Below are positions 1 to 11,778 of a stretch of DNA of 33,135 nt, piece after piece. The translations under genes were made by a program, and so were the position numbers. The DNA is from Angustibacter sp. Root456 (GTDB taxonomy: Bacteria > Actinomycetota > Actinomycetes > Actinomycetales > Angustibacteraceae). Positions within the stretch are counted from its first letter, which is position 1, and each line of letters begins with the position of its first letter. The DNA lies in assembly GCF_001426435.1 (NCBI RefSeq), contig NZ_LMER01000015.1, positions 417,017 to 450,151 of the forward strand, written 5' to 3'. Below the pieces are notes generated by a model. That model saw only the letters and a list, made by a program, of their open reading frames with translations. It was not told the origin of the DNA and searched no databases.

Positions 1-3729
<3,729 letters not shown>

Positions 3730-6159: not shown

Positions 6160-6660
6160 TCAGTGCTGCAGCGCCTGCGCGTACGGCGACCGCGACCAGG
6201 GCATGGGCGCGCGGCCGTCCTCGATCTGCGCGACGAACTCCTCCAGCAGCCAGTGCCGGTAGGCCAGGGCGTCCGCCGGGGTCGCGAGGGTGAGCAGGTG
6301 CTCGCCCTGGCGGCAGTACTCGTCGGCCTCGTCGAAGATGTCACCCAGGTGCCGCACGGCGTCGGCGATCTCACGGGGCACGCGGTAGGTCAGGTCGATG
6401 CTGGTCTCGCCCCGGTCGAGGGCGGCGTCGCGCTGCTTCTCGACGTCGTCCGACACCCCGGCGTACTGGTGCGTCAGCTGGTCGACGAGCACGAGCAGGC
6501 GCGCGGGCAGGTCGCTGTGACCGGACTCGACGGCGGGCGAGTTGGCGATGAGGGTGAGCTCGCGGATGAGGTCGTCGGCGTGCTCCTGCGCCCGCAGGTA
6601 CAGGTCGAGCGGGTAGTCGACGAGGTGCACCTCGAGCACCTCGGGCTGGGCGTCGCTCAC
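6160..6660 (-). CDS. Conserved protein coupled to an RsbW-like ATPase
   Basis: 166 residues, acidic and mostly alpha-helical by composition, with no signal peptide or membrane segment. I recognise no catalytic motif. The GTG start overlaps the TGA of the upstream ATPase gene by 4 bases (GTGA), so both are made from one message and probably act together. Similar-sized helical proteins often sit next to RsbW/HATPase genes in actinobacteria. A regulatory partner or target role is inference from that context only. Confidence 0.75.
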   Translation of the reverse strand: MSDAQPEVLEVHLVDYPLDLYLRAQEHADDLIRELTLIANSPAVESGHSDLPARLLVLVDQLTHQYAGVSDDVEKQRDAALDRGETSIDLTYRVPREIADAVRHLGDIFDEADEYCRQGEHLLTLATPADALAYRHWLLEEFVAQIEDGRAPMPWSRSPYAQALQH

Positions 6661-7052
6661 GACACCGCCTCCCCGTCCTCGTCGTCAGCGGCGAGCTCGA
6701 ACCACACCAGCTTGCCGTCGTCGTCGATCTCGACGCCGTGCCGCAGCGCGAGGCTCTCGACGAGCATGAGACCGCGCCCGGTGGCGGCCTCCTCGGAGTA
6801 CCGGTGGCGGCGGGGGGCGCGGCGGCTGCCGTCACGCACCTCCACGCGCAGCGGCAGGCTGTCGTCACGCACGAGCGTCACCTCGAACGGCGTACCGGCG
6901 TGCAGGACGACGTTCGTGACCAGCTCGCTGGCCAGCAGCTCGGCCTCGGGGCTGAGCCCGTCCAGACGCCACTGGTGCAGGGTGTCACGCACGAACCGGC
7001 GTGCGTCGCGCGTGCTGCTGGGGTGCGCGGGAAGGCTGATCACCGCACGCAC
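6657..7052 (-). CDS. RsbW-like ATP-binding protein (HATPase_c)
   Basis: About 131 residues forming a stand-alone GHKL ATPase like anti-sigma factors and serine kinases of the RsbW/SpoIIAB group. N-box SELVTNVVLHA, G1-type EVRDGSRRAP and G2-type GRGLMLVES are all present. I chose the GTG at 7052, just before the first beta strand (VISLP); longer reading up to 7133 has low-complexity sequence. It would bind a sigma factor or phosphorylate an antagonist. Candidate partners in the window are the coupled 6160-6660 protein and the SpoIIE-type phosphatase at 22.7-24.0 kb (speculative). Confidence 0.85.
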   Translation of the reverse strand: MRAVISLPAHPSSTRDARRFVRDTLHQWRLDGLSPEAELLASELVTNVVLHAGTPFEVTLVRDDSLPLRVEVRDGSRRAPRRHRYSEEAATGRGLMLVESLALRHGVEIDDDGKLVWFELAADDEDGEAVS

Positions 7053-7201
7053 CGGTACCCCGTTTCCTTGTCGCCCGCCAACCGATCGGGAGCAGCCTAC
7101 GACCTCCGGACGTCCCGCGCGCTCCGGCACCACCGTCGTGTCGCGGTGATCGCCTCAGCACCAGTGAACCAGTCCCCGCCGAACCCGCCACCCCAGCGCG
7201 G

Positions 7202-7696
7202 TCAGTACATCGGCCCCATCTCGAACTGTGGGCGGGCGACGGCCTGCTCCGGCACCGGCACCTGCGGCGACGGCAGGACGACGACCGGGCAGTCGGCCCG
7301 GCGGATGCAGCCGGCGGCGGTCGAGCCGACGAGCACCTCGCGCAGCCGGCTGTAGCCGTGACTGCCGACCACGAGGAGCCCGGCGTGGCGCGAGGCCTCC
7401 GACAGCCGCTCGACGGCGGAGCCGAACACGACCTCGCTCGCCACGGTCACCGAGTCGCGGTAGGGCTCGGCCACCTCGCTGACCTGCCGGGCCTGCGTGG
7501 CCTCGGCGTCCTCGCGTGCCGCCCGCGCCACCGCGGTCTCACCCAGGTTGCCCTCGGGCGCTCCGTGGCCGTAGGCGGTGATCACCTCGACGCCCCACCC
7601 GCGTCGCTGCGCTTCCTGCATGGCCCACTCCAGCGCGCGGGCGCTCCCGGGCGACCCGTCGACGCCGACGACGATCACGTCGCGTGTCTCGTTCAT
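7202..7696 (-). CDS. Universal stress protein (UspA family)
   Basis: 164-residue single-domain UspA protein. It starts DVIVVGVDGSPGSARALEWA and has the ATP-binding signature GSHG, then nine residues, then GST, followed by ADCPVVVL. It is therefore the ATP-binding rather than the UspA-only type. A strong ribosome site (GGAGG, 7 bases before ATG) sets the start at 7696, not the longer upstream in-frame start at 7780. A DosR-like box lies about 55 bp upstream. Several USPs belong to the mycobacterial DosR regulon (established), matching the flanking genes. Confidence 0.92.
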   Translation of the reverse strand: MNETRDVIVVGVDGSPGSARALEWAMQEAQRRGWGVEVITAYGHGAPEGNLGETAVARAAREDAEATQARQVSEVAEPYRDSVTVASEVVFGSAVERLSEASRHAGLLVVGSHGYSRLREVLVGSTAAGCIRRADCPVVVLPSPQVPVPEQAVARPQFEMGPMY

Positions 7697-7749
7697 TGTC
7701 AGCACCTCCCGACGCGCCCCATGCTCGCCGCGCTCCGCCGCACCAGGCA

Positions 7750-7781
7750 GAGCCGAAGGTCCCTGCAACGGTCCCTGCAAC
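7750..7781. promoter_or_regulatory. DosR-like box with 12-bp tandem repeat before the stress-protein gene
   Basis: GAGCCGAAGGTCCC (7750-7763) matches eight of ten half-site bases of GGGAC-N4-GTCCC. It overlaps two adjacent copies of GGTCCCTGCAAC (7758-7769, 7770-7781), so the GGTCCC half-site occurs twice in direct orientation. This suggests multiple regulator contacts. Confidence 0.5.
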
Positions 7782-7905
7782 GCTTCGGGGGCCTCGGCTC
7801 AAGCCGTACGGCGCAGCCACCGAAGATCACCGGGAGGGCGACACCGACGTCGGCCGCAGGTGGGGACCATCGGGGGTCATCTCGGCGACGGGTGGAGGAC
7901 GGTCA

Positions 7906-10191
7906 GTGACACGGCGCGGTCAGGGTCAGCCGGGTGCACAGTGGGTGCGCCGGCTGGGTCGTGCTGCCTGGGTGGTGGCGGCGCTGGGGGCCGCCTCCTC
8001 GCTGGTGCTGCCCGGCCCCGACGACGGCGCACCGATCCGCTACGCGCTCGTCGTCACCCTGCTCGCCTTCTTCGCCCTCCAGGTGATCCGGCTGCTGTTC
8101 GCCGCGGCGCTCCACCCGGCCCGTCGCTTGGCCCTGCTGTTCCTCACCGCTGGCGTCGGGCTGTGGGCCGCGGGCGCGGCGACGGTCGGCGCCAGCCAGG
8201 CCGTCGAGCTCGTGCGGTTCCCGGCGCCAGGCGAGGCGCTGTACCTCCTGTCGTACCTCGGTATGGCCGCCTTCCTGCTGCTGGACGTCGCCGGGCGGCG
8301 GCTGCCGGCGCTGTCGGTCTGGCTCGAGGCCGCCGTGGTGTGCGGAGCCGCCGCGTGCGTCTCGGCCTTCGCGGTGCTCTCGCCCCTGGCGCTCACCTTC
8401 GAGCGCGGCGGCCTGGCGCTGCTGCTCGCGATCCTCTATCCGCTGATCGACCTCGTGCTCGGGACGATCGTGCTGGCGCAGCTGCTGCTGCGCCAACGCG
8501 AGCGCACGGGGCGCACGGCCGCGCTGGCGCTGGCGTTCCTCGGGCTGGCGGTGGCCGACAGCAGCTTCCTGGTCTCGCTCAAGCAGGACACCTACTCCAC
8601 GAACGTGCTCCTCGACATCCTCTGGGGCGTCAGCTTCGCCGTCCTGGTGGGTGCGGCGTGCACGCCGCCTCGGCAGGCGGTCGGCCAGGGCAGCGGTCAG
8701 CTGCGCACGCGCACGCTCGTCGTCGCAGCGGGTGTGGGGCTGCTGGTGCTGGTGGTGCACCCGGGCGGCACGATCGGGTGGGTCGTCACGGTGCCGGCGA
8801 TCATCACGCTGGTGGGCGCGGGGGCGCGGATGGTGCTGGCCCTGCGCGAGGCGCGGGGGGCCGCTGAGGCGCTGCGCCTGTCACTCACCGACGAGCTCAC
8901 CGGGCTACCGAACCGTCGTGCGGTGCTGGCGAGCGCCGACGAGTCGCTGCGCGAGCGCCGAGCGTTCGGCTTCATGCTGCTCGATCTCGACGGTTTCAAG
9001 GACATCAACGACAGCCTCGGGCACGGCACGGGCGACGAGGTGCTGATCGCGGTGGCGCGCCGCATGCGCGATGCCTTGCCGTCCGACGTCGTCGTGGCCC
9101 GGCTCGGCGGCGACGAGTTCGCCCTGCTGTCTCTGACCGACGACGACCTGGAGCTGCTCGAGACCGCTCGGCGCGTGCGCGAGGTGCTCATGGCGCCGCT
9201 GCACATCGACAACCTCGACCTCGCCATCGGCGCCTCGATCGGCATCACGGTGGCCGGTCAGGATGACGCGAGCGCCACCGACCTGCTGCGCCGGGCCGAC
9301 GTCGCGATGTACGAGGCGAAGGAGTCTCGCTCGGGCGCGTTGCTCTACGACACGGCACAGGACGGCTACTCGCGCCAGCGGCTGCGCCGCGGCGAGGAGC
9401 TGCGCCACGCGATCGCCAGCAACGAGCTCGTGCTGTGGTACCAGCCGCAGGTCGACGCCGTGAGCCGGCGCGTGACGGCCATGGAGGCGCTCGTGCGCTG
9501 GCAGCACCCGCGCGAGGGGCTGCTCTCGCCGATGCTGTTCTTGTCCGAAGCCCGTCGCGCGGGGCTCATGCCAGCGCTGTCGGACGCCGTGATGCGCATG
9601 GTCGTCTCCGACACACGAGCGTTCGTCGACGCCGGCTACGACTTCCGGGTCGCCATGAACTGCGCGCCGCCGGAGCTGCTGGGCGGTCAGCTGCTGCCGC
9701 GGCTGTACGAGGAGCTGGCCGAGGCCGACCTCCCCGGCGACAGCGTGCTCATCGAGGTCACCGAGGACTCGTTCCTCTCCGATCCCGAGCGGGCGCGCGA
9801 CGCGCTGTACGACCTGCGCGAGCACGAGGTGCAGGCGTCGATCGACGACTACGGGACGGGCTTCTCGTCGCTGGCCTACCTGCGCGACCTGCCGGTGCAG
9901 GAGCTCAAGATCGACCGCAGCTTCGTGTCGGCGCTGACGGCCGACCACCGCACCCGGCTCATCGTGCAGACCACGACGCAGATGGCCCACGCCATGGGGC
10001 TGCGGGTGGTGGCCGAGGGCGTCGAGGACGAGCAGACGGCCACAGAGCTCGTCGCGATGAAGGTCGACGTGCTGCAGGGATACCACATCGCGGCGCCCAT
10101 GCCGCCGGAGCAGGTCGGACCGTGGCTGCGGCGGTGGGCCACCGGAGCGGGCCGGTCGACGTCGGCCGGCACCACGCCGTCCGTCGCCTGA
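7906..10191 (+). CDS. Membrane GGDEF-EAL cyclic-di-GMP protein
   Basis: 761 residues. The N-terminal about 300 residues hold eight to ten hydrophobic helices, a possible membrane-embedded sensor. GGDEF domain about 325-485 has the intact motif RLGGDEF (GGDEF 401-405) and SLTDELTGLPNRRA. EAL domain about 500-750 has EALVRW (527-532), DDYGTGFSSLAYL, ELKIDRSFV and EGVEDE, the residues needed for phosphodiesterase activity. It could therefore both make and degrade c-di-GMP. The start is a GTG preceded by GGAGG at 7894-7898. The longer upstream ORF runs into the stress-gene promoter and lacks a ribosome site. No other c-di-GMP gene is seen in the window. Confidence 0.92.
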   Translation: MTRRGQGQPGAQWVRRLGRAAWVVAALGAASSLVLPGPDDGAPIRYALVVTLLAFFALQVIRLLFAAALHPARRLALLFLTAGVGLWAAGAATVGASQAVELVRFPAPGEALYLLSYLGMAAFLLLDVAGRRLPALSVWLEAAVVCGAAACVSAFAVLSPLALTFERGGLALLLAILYPLIDLVLGTIVLAQLLLRQRERTGRTAALALAFLGLAVADSSFLVSLKQDTYSTNVLLDILWGVSFAVLVGAACTPPRQAVGQGSGQLRTRTLVVAAGVGLLVLVVHPGGTIGWVVTVPAIITLVGAGARMVLALREARGAAEALRLSLTDELTGLPNRRAVLASADESLRERRAFGFMLLDLDGFKDINDSLGHGTGDEVLIAVARRMRDALPSDVVVARLGGDEFALLSLTDDDLELLETARRVREVLMAPLHIDNLDLAIGASIGITVAGQDDASATDLLRRADVAMYEAKESRSGALLYDTAQDGYSRQRLRRGEELRHAIASNELVLWYQPQVDAVSRRVTAMEALVRWQHPREGLLSPMLFLSEARRAGLMPALSDAVMRMVVSDTRAFVDAGYDFRVAMNCAPPELLGGQLLPRLYEELAEADLPGDSVLIEVTEDSFLSDPERARDALYDLREHEVQASIDDYGTGFSSLAYLRDLPVQELKIDRSFVSALTADHRTRLIVQTTTQMAHAMGLRVVAEGVEDEQTATELVAMKVDVLQGYHIAAPMPPEQVGPWLRRWATGAGRSTSAGTTPSVA

Positions 10192-10241: not shown

Positions 10242-10991
10242 TCAGGAGACGGGCAGGCCCAGCGGGACGGCGGGCTCGAGCGCCACGAGGTCGATGAGCT
10301 CGGACGCCGACCGGCGCACGAACGCCGACGGCGGCGGGACGACGATGCCGTCGAGCCCGATGCCGAGCGTCACGAGCCGGTGCGCGTCCGGGAACTCGCG
10401 GCGCTGGTTCTCCAGCAGGGGCGTGAAGTGCGCGTACACCGGCGTGCTCGACGGTGAGCCGAGGTACTCCGCCGTGCGCGTGCCCGGCAACGGCCGGGTG
10501 ATGATGCCCACCGACGCCAGCAGCCGCCGCACCCGCTCGTCGAGGATCGCGACGAACGACGACATGTGGTTGACCCGGGCGATGGTCATCAGCCCGTGGT
10601 AGAGCGCGAGCGACAGCCGGGTGCCCGACCGGGCGTAGTCCGAGCGCACCCCGAGCGTCCCGACCTCCCACGTGGTGGTCAGGTCCATGCCCACGGCCGC
10701 CGCCGAGCGCAGCCCGTCGACGTTCCACGGGTCACGCCCGACGTCGGCGAGGGTCTTGAACCCCGACGGCCCGGGCGCGATGAGCCGGACGGCGGCCACG
10801 ACCTGGTCGGCGGCGTCGGCGATCGCGAGGAACACCGAGTCGGGCTCGTACGGCCCGTACTCGACGTCGAGCTCCTCCCGGGTGTTGCCGAACCACTTCC
10901 AGAACACCTCGGCCTCGCACTCCAGGGCGGAGTCGAGCAGGTGTCCGCGCACGTCGAAGTGCATGTACAGCTGCTCGTTCGGCACCGCCAT
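10242..10991 (-). CDS. LuxI/GNAT-like acyl-transfer protein (autoinducer-synthase-like)
   Basis: 249 residues. The first 170 follow the layout of LuxI-type acyl-homoserine-lactone synthases and related N-acyl amino-acid synthases: aromatic FWKW (30-33), Asp42, the strand AADQVVAAVRL with Arg69, WEV with Glu109, and IARVNHMSSFVAILDERVRRLLASVG as the GNAT acyl-CoA/ACP helix-strand unit. The Arg that follows WE(x)S in LuxI is Thr112 here, so substrate specificity probably differs. The C-terminal about 60 residues have no clear match. The ATG overlaps the stop of the SpeD-like gene by one base. Ordinary acetyltransferase activity is the alternative. Family assignment is from motif pattern only. 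Confidence 0.6.
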   Translation of the reverse strand: MAVPNEQLYMHFDVRGHLLDSALECEAEVFWKWFGNTREELDVEYGPYEPDSVFLAIADAADQVVAAVRLIAPGPSGFKTLADVGRDPWNVDGLRSAAAVGMDLTTTWEVGTLGVRSDYARSGTRLSLALYHGLMTIARVNHMSSFVAILDERVRRLLASVGIITRPLPGTRTAEYLGSPSSTPVYAHFTPLLENQRREFPDAHRLVTLGIGLDGIVVPPPSAFVRRSASELIDLVALEPAVPLGLPVS

Positions 10992-11332
10992 CAGAAGGCC
11001 TTGAACTCGACGTGCGGGCTGTCGAAGAACGCGCGCGTGTACTCGACGACGTCGTCGACCGAGAACGGCTTGCAGGCGTAGATGTCGACGCTGAAGAACA
11101 GCCGGGGCTGGTCCCAGGCGTAGAAGTGCGCACCGGAGGTCTCCCAGTGGATCCACCCGGCCCAGCCGTACAGCGGCGACTGGTGGGTGGCGGGCTCCAT
11201 CAGGGCGACCATGTCGATGGTCTTCGACAGCTGCGACAAATAGGTCTTGATCGACTCGGCGTCGATGGGCTCACGGCACAGCCCCTCGACGACGAGGCGC
11301 TGACGGTGGATCTCGGGGGCGAGGTCGTGCAC
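10991..11332 (-). CDS. Small S-adenosylmethionine-decarboxylase-like (SpeD fold) protein
   Basis: 113 residues, GTG start with GGAG six bases upstream. The segment WETSGAHFYAW then FFSVDIYACKPFSVDDVVEYT resembles the bacterial SpeD core. Aligning by hand to Thermotoga SpeD places Ser66 at the self-cleaving serine that becomes the pyruvoyl group and Cys87 at the catalytic cysteine in DLFTCG. The catalytic His68 position is Tyr71 here, with a His at 69. Length fits class 1b SpeD (about 120-130 aa). It may be an active pyruvoyl decarboxylase with altered substrate or a non-catalytic SAM/amino-acid binder. It is coupled (TGATG) to the LuxI-like gene, suggesting supply of an amine or SAM-derived acceptor. 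Confidence 0.6.
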   Translation of the reverse strand: MHDLAPEIHRQRLVVEGLCREPIDAESIKTYLSQLSKTIDMVALMEPATHQSPLYGWAGWIHWETSGAHFYAWDQPRLFFSVDIYACKPFSVDDVVEYTRAFFDSPHVEFKAF

Positions 11333-11511: not shown

Positions 11512-11778
11512 CTATCCCCCGGCGGTGGCCTCGCGCTCCCGGACGACGCGCTCAGCCGCGGCATCGCGCAGGTCGATGCGCCGCAGCCGCGCGACGATCT
11601 CTCGCTCGCGGTCGATCATCACGAGCAGCTCGGGGTTCAGCCGGGGGCCGGCCTCGCCGTCGACGTACGTCGGTAGCACCCGCACGGCGTCCTCGACCCG
11701 CGCGAGCTCGGCGATGAGCTCTCGCACCGACGCCTGCGGCGTCACGCTGGGTTCGTGGTCGATGGTCGGGTGCGCCAT
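11512..11778 (-). CDS. Small helical protein of unknown function
   Basis: 88 residues. I do not recognise it. The middle region (SVRELIAELARVEDAVRVL, then ELLVMIDREREIVARLRRI) is rich in charged and hydrophobic heptads and probably forms a helical hairpin. The start ATG at 11778 has a weak AAGG site. It lies alone between the SpeD-like gene and a small acidic protein gene. Codon use is typical of the window, so it is likely real. Confidence 0.6.
   Translation of the reverse strand: MAHPTIDHEPSVTPQASVRELIAELARVEDAVRVLPTYVDGEAGPRLNPELLVMIDREREIVARLRRIDLRDAAAERVVREREATAGG

Follow-up and report, generated by a model that had tools for sequence, protein, structure and literature searches.

The locus in Angustibacter sp. 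Root456

The window analysed here is a 33,135-nucleotide stretch of Angustibacter sp. Root456 DNA, to which all coordinates without a prefix refer. It carries a pair of overlapping minus-strand genes, the first encoding a small protein related to the S-adenosylmethionine (SAM) decarboxylase SpeD and the second a GNAT-fold acyltransferase resembling LuxI and FeeM, with a plus-strand gene for a multi-transmembrane protein beside them. Conservation was followed in 83 loci, made up of the best 80 of 108 relatives from one pattern scan of a species-genome collection, plus the window copy and two relatives (three of 99 related genomes, its own included). By record title, the main taxa among them are Cellulomonadaceae, Nocardioidaceae, Geodermatophilaceae, Micromonosporaceae, Acidimicrobiia and Saccharibacteria. 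The features of the locus, with the evidence for each, are:

10991–11332, minus strand: SpeD-like protein of 113 amino acids with a GTG start, the predicted head-group (amine-forming) enzyme (PF02675 match, AlphaFold2 model, conservation over 83 loci)
10242–10991, minus strand: LuxI/FeeM-like GNAT of 249 amino acids, the predicted acyl-transfer enzyme (AlphaFold2 model, fold matches, family hits of relatives)
10989–10993, minus strand: TGATG stop/start overlap joining the two enzyme genes (sequence read directly, coordinates of the open reading frames)
11135–11137, minus strand: codon of Ser66, equivalent to the pyruvoyl-forming Ser63 of T. maritima SpeD (invariant in 83/83; alignment to canonical SpeD)
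11120–11122, minus strand: codon of Tyr71, at the position of T. maritima His68 (Tyr in 83/83)
11072–11074, minus strand: codon of Cys87, equivalent to the catalytic Cys83 (invariant in 83/83; alignment to canonical SpeD)
7684–10191, plus strand: multi-transmembrane GGDEF-EAL protein, candidate receptor with cyclic di-GMP (c-di-GMP) output (PF00990, PF00563, transmembrane prediction, linkage in relatives)

An earlier, sequence-only reading of this DNA had described two open reading frames (ORFs) joined by a one-base overlap, and both were found on the minus strand as listed; the stop codon TGA (10993–10991) and the start codon ATG (10991–10989) have a single base (A) in common.

The SpeD-like protein

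Searched on its own, the SpeD-like protein matched the AdoMet_dc family (PF02675) with 33.7 bits against a curated cut-off of 25 (E 5e-8), and 58 of 58 relatives matched this family at E 0.01 or better. A PF02675 search of the whole genome returned nothing, though the gene alone matches, and our own alignments were used for later genome searches. Structures were modelled by AlphaFold2 with family alignments, and rows of a structure comparison within 1 Z of each other are counted as tied. The model of the SpeD-like protein has a mean predicted local distance difference test score (pLDDT) of 96.8, and superimposes on T. maritima SpeD (1vr7) with Z 14.0 and a root-mean-square deviation of 2.4 over 106 aligned amino acids at 15% identity, and on A. 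aeolicus SpeD with Z 13.3; the first row that is not a SpeD is human spermine synthase (Z 10.3). A SpeD fold had been set beforehand as a test, and the predicted model has it. Comparison of folds was required, as sequence searches of the PDB with this protein gave chance matches to RNA-binding proteins only.

Alignment to canonical SpeD proteins, one of which served as the bridge to the T. maritima protein, places Ser66 at T. maritima Ser63, Tyr71 at His68, Cys87 at Cys83 and Ala58 at Ser55, which bears out the earlier claim of a SpeD-like protein that keeps the pyruvoyl-forming serine and the catalytic cysteine and carries tyrosine for His68. The canonical SpeD and SpeDC-like rows of the alignment have histidine at the Tyr71 position. 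None of the 83 loci departs from Ser66, His69, Tyr71, Ser81, Asp83, Cys87 or the stretch GWAGWIHWE. Further close members that came to light afterwards have the same Ser66, Tyr71 and Cys87, though two of them (L087 and L122) vary in the GWAGWI part.

Ten further SpeD homologues were aligned, and all ten have the equivalents of Ser66 and Cys87. At the Tyr71 position six have tyrosine (one actinobacterium, two members of the Saccharibacteria class, two cyanobacterial plasmids and one Halioglobus plasmid) and four have histidine (L089, the SpeD and the SpeDC-like protein of L090, and L125). His62 is found in none of the six tyrosine-bearing proteins, and His69 is absent from five of them. Since six of the ten share Ser66, Tyr71 and Cys87, this residue set appears to mark a clade that is wider than the family paired with the acyltransferase. 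The tree has long branches and is built on 113 columns, and does not safely place the SpeD-like family with respect to SpeD and SpeDC.

The plasmid-borne genes of this remote Ser/Tyr/Cys type lie on replicons of Acaryochloris (typed as conjugative; L126:5001–5357), Nostoc (L127:4995–5357) and Halioglobus (L128:3995–4351). A GNAT gene next to the one on the Acaryochloris plasmid was considered as a partner and rejected, being an ordinary tandem GNAT and not of the LuxI/FeeM type. Phage records held no relative, and none was confirmed on viral contigs. In one genome of the Saccharibacteria class, a true nicotianamine synthase (PF03059, E 3e-20) follows a remote Tyr-type SpeD-like gene (L123:652–1452 and 1492–1854, minus strand), possibly a second pathway built on the same SpeD clade; this single case is too thin to serve as an argument for a SAM substrate. 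The gene after the Micavibrio copy (L067) had also been thought a nicotianamine synthase relative, and this was dropped after Pfam, a PDB sequence search and a comparison with the true enzyme all came back blank. Four genomes of one actinobacterial family (L090–L093) have genes for a SpeDC-like protein, a canonical SpeD and a SpeE-like protein in a row beside an aminotransferase-like gene (assigned by eye), an arrangement resembling the SpeDC clusters described in the main text of PMC10407285.

The LuxI/FeeM-like acyltransferase

The acyltransferase model (mean pLDDT 94.1) is closest to FeeM (Z 17.2 over 182 amino acids), LasI (Z 16.1 over 182) and BjaI (Z 15.9 over 195), and, apart from one ordinary GNAT (5jph, see below), the other acetyltransferases among the 50 structure rows lie at Z 11.9–14.5. 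The window protein has no Pfam match of its own, Autoind_synth and FeeM included, and its match to the NCBIfam model TIGR03694 (34.3 bits) is below the cut-off of 111.95. Among 47 relatives, hits at E 0.1 or better were obtained to exosort_acyl (TIGR03694) in 39, Acetyltransf_5 in 13, Autoind_synth in 11 (best E 1.2e-5), TraI in nine and FeeM in five. A profile of the family run against the PDB reached LasI at E 0.15 only.

The WE motif reported from the sequence is present as W108-E109; in 71 complete family members the tryptophan is kept in 65 and an acidic residue (D or E) at 109 in 69. The conserved LuxI positions are presumably R24, F28, W34, R70, E101 and R104, in the numbering we take for that protein. 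By the weak profile-LasI alignment (E 0.15), R104 corresponds to Thr/Ser112 in 71/71 and W34 to Asn36 in 70/71. R24 corresponds to Glu26 in 71/71, a site just outside the printed alignment that was placed by extending the local alignment with the presumed R-x3-F pattern. F28 is kept as F30, R70 as R69 and the acidic E101 as D/E109 (69/71). The alignment suggests that the enzyme is not a canonical acyl-homoserine lactone (AHL) synthase; homoserine lactone formation in the manner of LuxI would not be expected, because R104 is replaced by Thr/Ser112 and R24 probably by Glu26. The earlier description of the protein as a LuxI-type, SAM-using enzyme thus stands as regards its FeeM/LuxI-type GNAT fold, and is weakened as regards its active-site residues. 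The glycine-rich acyl-CoA loop of ordinary GNATs is absent from the family alignment (by eye), as it is from LuxI and FeeM, and this favours acyl carrier protein (ACP) as the predicted acyl donor.

Conservation of the gene pair

The acyltransferase gene is the next gene downstream of the SpeD-like gene in 75 of the 83 loci, mostly overlapping it or a few bases away, and at most about 175 bases. This adjacency, together with the invariance of Ser66, Tyr71 and Cys87, means that the pairing is not due to chance, and the expectation that it would be kept across genomes was borne out. The eight unpaired SpeD-like genes are those of L035, L041, L052, L062, L064, L065, L067 and L082, of which those of L041 and L052 are each the second copy of a genome that has a paired one as well (L019 and L021). 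The second copy of L041, from an actinomycete metagenome-assembled genome (MAG), is followed by a gene that by eye looks like an Old-Yellow-Enzyme-type oxidoreductase (L041:5412–7367).

When 396 genomes of the phylum were sampled, a profile of the SpeD-like family matched nine: three with close members (G000, G375 and G280), one remote (G366, 2e-31) and five weak, the weak ones including SpeDC-like and other SpeD proteins. The acyltransferase profile matched 11 genomes of the same sample, strongly in G000, G375 and G280 and weakly in eight (best E 8e-10 to 6e-6). Six proteins scanned from the weakly matching genomes fit FeeM, LuxI or GNAT models, and such matches are probably sister families. 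The occurrence of GNAT homologues without the small partner had been named as a point that would count against the coupling of the two proteins: all three genomes with strong homologues have the SpeD-like gene, and the eight with weak ones do not. Among 195 genomes of the class of a Saccharibacteria MAG (L054), 11 had SpeD-like matches, and the acyltransferase gene was adjacent in all eight strong cases (E < 1e-50), five of which have sequences already seen in the pattern scan.

In Blastococcus mobilis DSM 44272 the module occurs twice, on different contigs (L028 and L046), each copy with its own acyltransferase and sensor. In the window, an ORF of 88 amino acids (11512–11778, minus strand) lies just upstream of the enzyme pair and has no Pfam match.

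A membrane sensor gene adjoins the pair

The plus-strand gene at 7684–10191 is convergent with the acyltransferase gene, and its stop codon is 50 bases from the acyltransferase stop, outside the interval of the sequence-only reading. Its product matches PF00990 (E 5e-37) and PF00563 (E 2.3e-62) with intact GGDEF, EAL and DDYGTG motifs, and has ten transmembrane segments by hydropathy prediction; its true start is perhaps a GTG at 7906. Sensor genes adjoin 65 of the 75 paired loci (55 GGDEF-EAL proteins and ten histidine kinases) and none of the eight unpaired ones, so that the synthase-like genes are consistently linked to a membrane sensor. Near one unpaired gene (L082), a kinase without predicted transmembrane segments lies 2.1 kb away. 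Six of the ten paired loci lacking an adjoining sensor are on short contigs (L023, L024, L061, L063, L075 and L081), and the other four are from Paractinoplanes. The difference in linkage is significant by Fisher's test (p 2e-8 for 65/69 against 0/8), the loci not being independent. At least six transmembrane segments are predicted in 56 of 58 complete sensor ORFs, the exceptions being L056 (three) and L017 (none, in an over-extended ORF).

The orientation of the sensor gene varies among loci: convergent, upstream co-directional, divergent or downstream co-directional, and in one genome (G280) it sits between the two enzyme genes. A single adjacency to a GGDEF gene means little because about 3.7% of the window genome, which has 37 GGDEF matches, is within 1 kb of one; linkage that is repeated and rearranged means much. 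As a control, 13 loci from distinct clades were compared, and the families recurring across phyla were the two enzymes and the sensors. The other clusters consisted of ORFs antisense to these genes or overlapping them, probable ABC transporters (judged by eye) and, between Saccharibacteria loci, a response regulator and a FolD-like gene; none of these clusters was counted as a cross-phylum part. The gene pair thus belongs to a conserved module of three parts, and the adjacent receptor-like membrane protein is the strongest evidence that its product is a signal.

In Saccharibacteria and in Mycolicibacterium sphagni (L060), the sensor is a multi-transmembrane histidine kinase. HisKA_7TM (PF16927, 5.9e-11) was found in one of four kinases scanned, that of M. 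sphagni, with which the L054 kinase shares 42% identity over its N-terminal half. Nine Saccharibacteria loci hold all three genes together, and nine loci of this type have a response regulator homologue upstream of the SpeD-like gene (one confirmed by PF00072). The 11 genomes with SpeD-like matches in the class of L054 are small, 0.8–1.2 Mb. In one Saccharibacteria locus (L055:6178–8276) the kinase is split over overlapping ORFs (6178–7587 and 7440–8276), which is a frameshift or an assembly error. The transmembrane domains of three actinobacterial groups of sensors are weakly related to one another (E 4e-6 to 8e-5), and that of the Saccharibacteria kinase has no detectable relation to the actinobacterial sensors.

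Divergence and spread of the module

Over 46 loci the SpeD-like proteins had a mean pairwise identity of 65% and the acyltransferases one of 31%. The identity of sensor N-terminal regions followed that of the acyltransferases (r 0.86 for 11 loci and 0.77 for six) more closely than that of the SpeD-like proteins (r 0.65 and 0.60), the pairs compared not being independent. These values hint at a fixed head-group enzyme combined with a variable acyl-transfer enzyme and receptor, that is, a constant head group with an acyl part and receptor that co-vary.

A module of the Saccharibacteria type is present in M. sphagni (L060:5001–8422), comprising the SpeD-like gene, the acyltransferase gene and the HisKA_7TM kinase gene. 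In the SpeD-like tree this copy falls inside the Saccharibacteria clade (support 98/86); the acyltransferase tree puts it next to that clade (86/45). As both trees and the type of kinase place it with Saccharibacteria, transfer between Saccharibacteria and Actinobacteria, in one direction or the other, is likely for this copy.

Proposed function and alternatives

We propose, with moderate confidence, that the locus is a candidate autoinducer system consisting of a two-enzyme signal synthase and a candidate membrane receptor. The SpeD-like protein would be a divergent pyruvoyl-type decarboxylase, with tyrosine for His68, making a small primary amine from an amino acid or SAM. Decarboxylation would come first, because pyruvoyl Schiff-base chemistry needs a free alpha-amine. 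The LuxI/FeeM-type enzyme would then transfer an acyl chain, probably from acyl-ACP, onto the amine, and the resulting N-acyl amine would leave the cell or partition into the membrane. There it may be sensed by the neighbouring multi-transmembrane protein, with an output through GGDEF-EAL domains (c-di-GMP) in Actinobacteria and through a multi-transmembrane histidine kinase and nearby response regulator in Saccharibacteria. Amine formation is suggested by the retained serine and cysteine and by the fold, acylation by the fold of the second enzyme and sensing by gene linkage; what we infer beyond the observations is that catalysis takes place, on which substrate and in which order, and that the product is exported and sensed.

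Several observations weigh against this proposal. According to the main text of PMC10407285, T. maritima SpeD requires histidine 68, along with S63 and C83, for self-processing. With tyrosine at this position and alanine at that of Ser55 in 83/83 loci, the pyruvoyl group may never form, and the absence of His68 is the chief difficulty for the predicted catalysis. For the acyltransferase, LuxI R104 is replaced throughout, as described above, and an ordinary S. aureus GNAT (5jph) reaches Z 15.4 over 142 amino acids, tied with BjaI; it is aligned length and family hits, in addition to Z, that carry the assignment to AHL synthases and FeeM. The four pairs from Paractinoplanes lack a sensor gene within 5 kb, and GGDEF-EAL sensors, being common, need not sense the product of the pair. 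No export gene or target promoter was identified, no search having been aimed at either. In the six unpaired genomes other than those of L041 and L052, no such acyltransferase was detected, and the 83-locus set is phylogenetically uneven.

The product might also be an N-acyl amine lipid or metabolite for membrane or defence, and no signal, with the GGDEF-EAL protein or kinase regulating its production or responding to membrane state. This would suit the FeeM fold match, since FeeM-type enzymes make N-acyl amino acids, and the abundance of GGDEF genes in the window genome. We consider it unlikely: the sensor gene is linked in several gene orders, opposite strands included, which suits the pairing of a receptor better than operon regulation, and Saccharibacteria keep the three genes together in nine loci despite genomes of 0.8–1.2 Mb.

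Another explanation, and quite an improbable one, is that the SpeD-like protein neither processes itself nor decarboxylates. It would instead act as a folded subunit in partnership with the acyltransferase, binding SAM or an amine and either handing this to the enzyme or regulating it. The replacement of both His68 and Ser55 in all loci is what such a subunit would explain, as is the tight stop/start coupling with the GNAT gene in many of them. However, Ser66 and Cys87 are invariant in the family and kept in all ten further homologues, including the six with tyrosine, which suggests that some chemistry has been retained, and eight loci have the SpeD-like gene without an adjacent GNAT gene.

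Ordinary polyamine metabolism, with an ornithine, arginine or SAM decarboxylase beside a polyamine acetyltransferase, is very unlikely: SpeD homologues have become ornithine and arginine decarboxylases (ODC and ADC; main text of PMC10407285), SpeG chains are among the Foldseek matches and a viral polyamine acetyltransferase (3qb8) reaches Z 12.7, but FeeM, LasI and BjaI score higher (Z 15.9–17.2), the window genome has no match to spermidine synthase (PF01564) in a kind of search that also missed the window's own PF02675 gene, and inspection by eye of the listed neighbours, most of which were not run against a family library, turned up no polyamine gene.

A broader version of the signalling proposal is tentative, and we would call it rather doubtful as a whole. 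In it, the SpeD-derived Ser/Tyr/Cys enzyme makes one invariant amine (possibly decarboxylated SAM, or another), the LuxI/FeeM-derived enzyme adds a species-specific acyl chain, and multi-transmembrane receptors read the product through c-di-GMP in Actinobacteria or a kinase in Saccharibacteria. Some Saccharibacteria live on actinobacterial hosts, and if the module has moved between the two groups, then parasite and host could have one chemical language in common, or could listen in on it. The presence of the same module in Saccharibacteria and Mycolicibacterium makes it feasible to test directly whether an epibiont phylum and a possible host phylum communicate chemically.

If the candidate autoinducer system is real, then a signal head-group enzyme would be a further innovation of the SpeD fold after ODC and ADC, and Actinobacteria would gain a membrane-sensed, c-di-GMP-coupled acylated signal that is invisible to a search for LuxI/LuxR. 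It also poses a question of enzymology, whether a SpeD fold can form or use a pyruvoyl group with tyrosine in place of the essential histidine.

Comparison with known systems

The class 1b SpeD proteins (with SpeDA and SpeDC) share with the small protein of the module their fold, size, a PF02675 match above the cut-off and the equivalents of Ser63 and Cys83. The module protein differs by tyrosine for His68, alanine at Ser55 and a motif of its own (GWAGWIHWETSGAHFYAW..P..FFSVDIYTCK), and it is usually paired with a LuxI/FeeM-like acyltransferase instead of SpeE or another polyamine gene. Neofunctionalisation of SpeD, including ODC and ADC activity, is described in PMC10407285, the main text of which mentions neither GNAT nor acyltransferase nor LuxI. 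A survey of 11 LuxI proteins in Gram-positive bacteria (PMC5539150) does not, in the text available, contain Blastococcus, Actinoplanes, Geodermatophilus or the word decarboxylase. No description of a SpeD/LuxI-like pair, or of its actinobacterial c-di-GMP version, was found in the open-licence literature.

Closest to the Saccharibacteria loci are the 18 LuxI homologues adjoining sensory kinases in genomes of the candidate phyla radiation (CPR), which Bernard et al. (2020; PMC7567580) proposed as candidate complete quorum sensing systems. According to the main text of that paper, they were interpreted as AHL synthases in which W35 is either retained or exchanged for F or Y, and the term S-adenosylmethionine decarboxylase has no occurrence there. 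These CPR loci may be identical with Saccharibacteria loci of the present family.

The LuxI-type AHL synthases LasI and BjaI resemble the acyltransferase in fold and in the retained F28, R70 and acidic E101 positions. The module differs from them in the replacement of R104 and W34 (and, by extension of the alignment, R24), in the decarboxylase-fold partner and in having a membrane-protein sensor as its neighbour. FeeM, which gives the best fold match, and the PEP-CTERM exosortase-associated acyltransferases of TIGR03694, hit by most of the relatives scanned, are the other near counterparts, the window acyltransferase differing from the latter by its score far below the cut-off. In gene arrangement the module is like the quorum sensing pairs LuxM-LuxN and CqsA-CqsS, in which the gene for a signal synthase lies beside that for a multi-transmembrane sensor; it differs from both in its two-enzyme synthase and, in Actinobacteria, in its GGDEF-EAL output.

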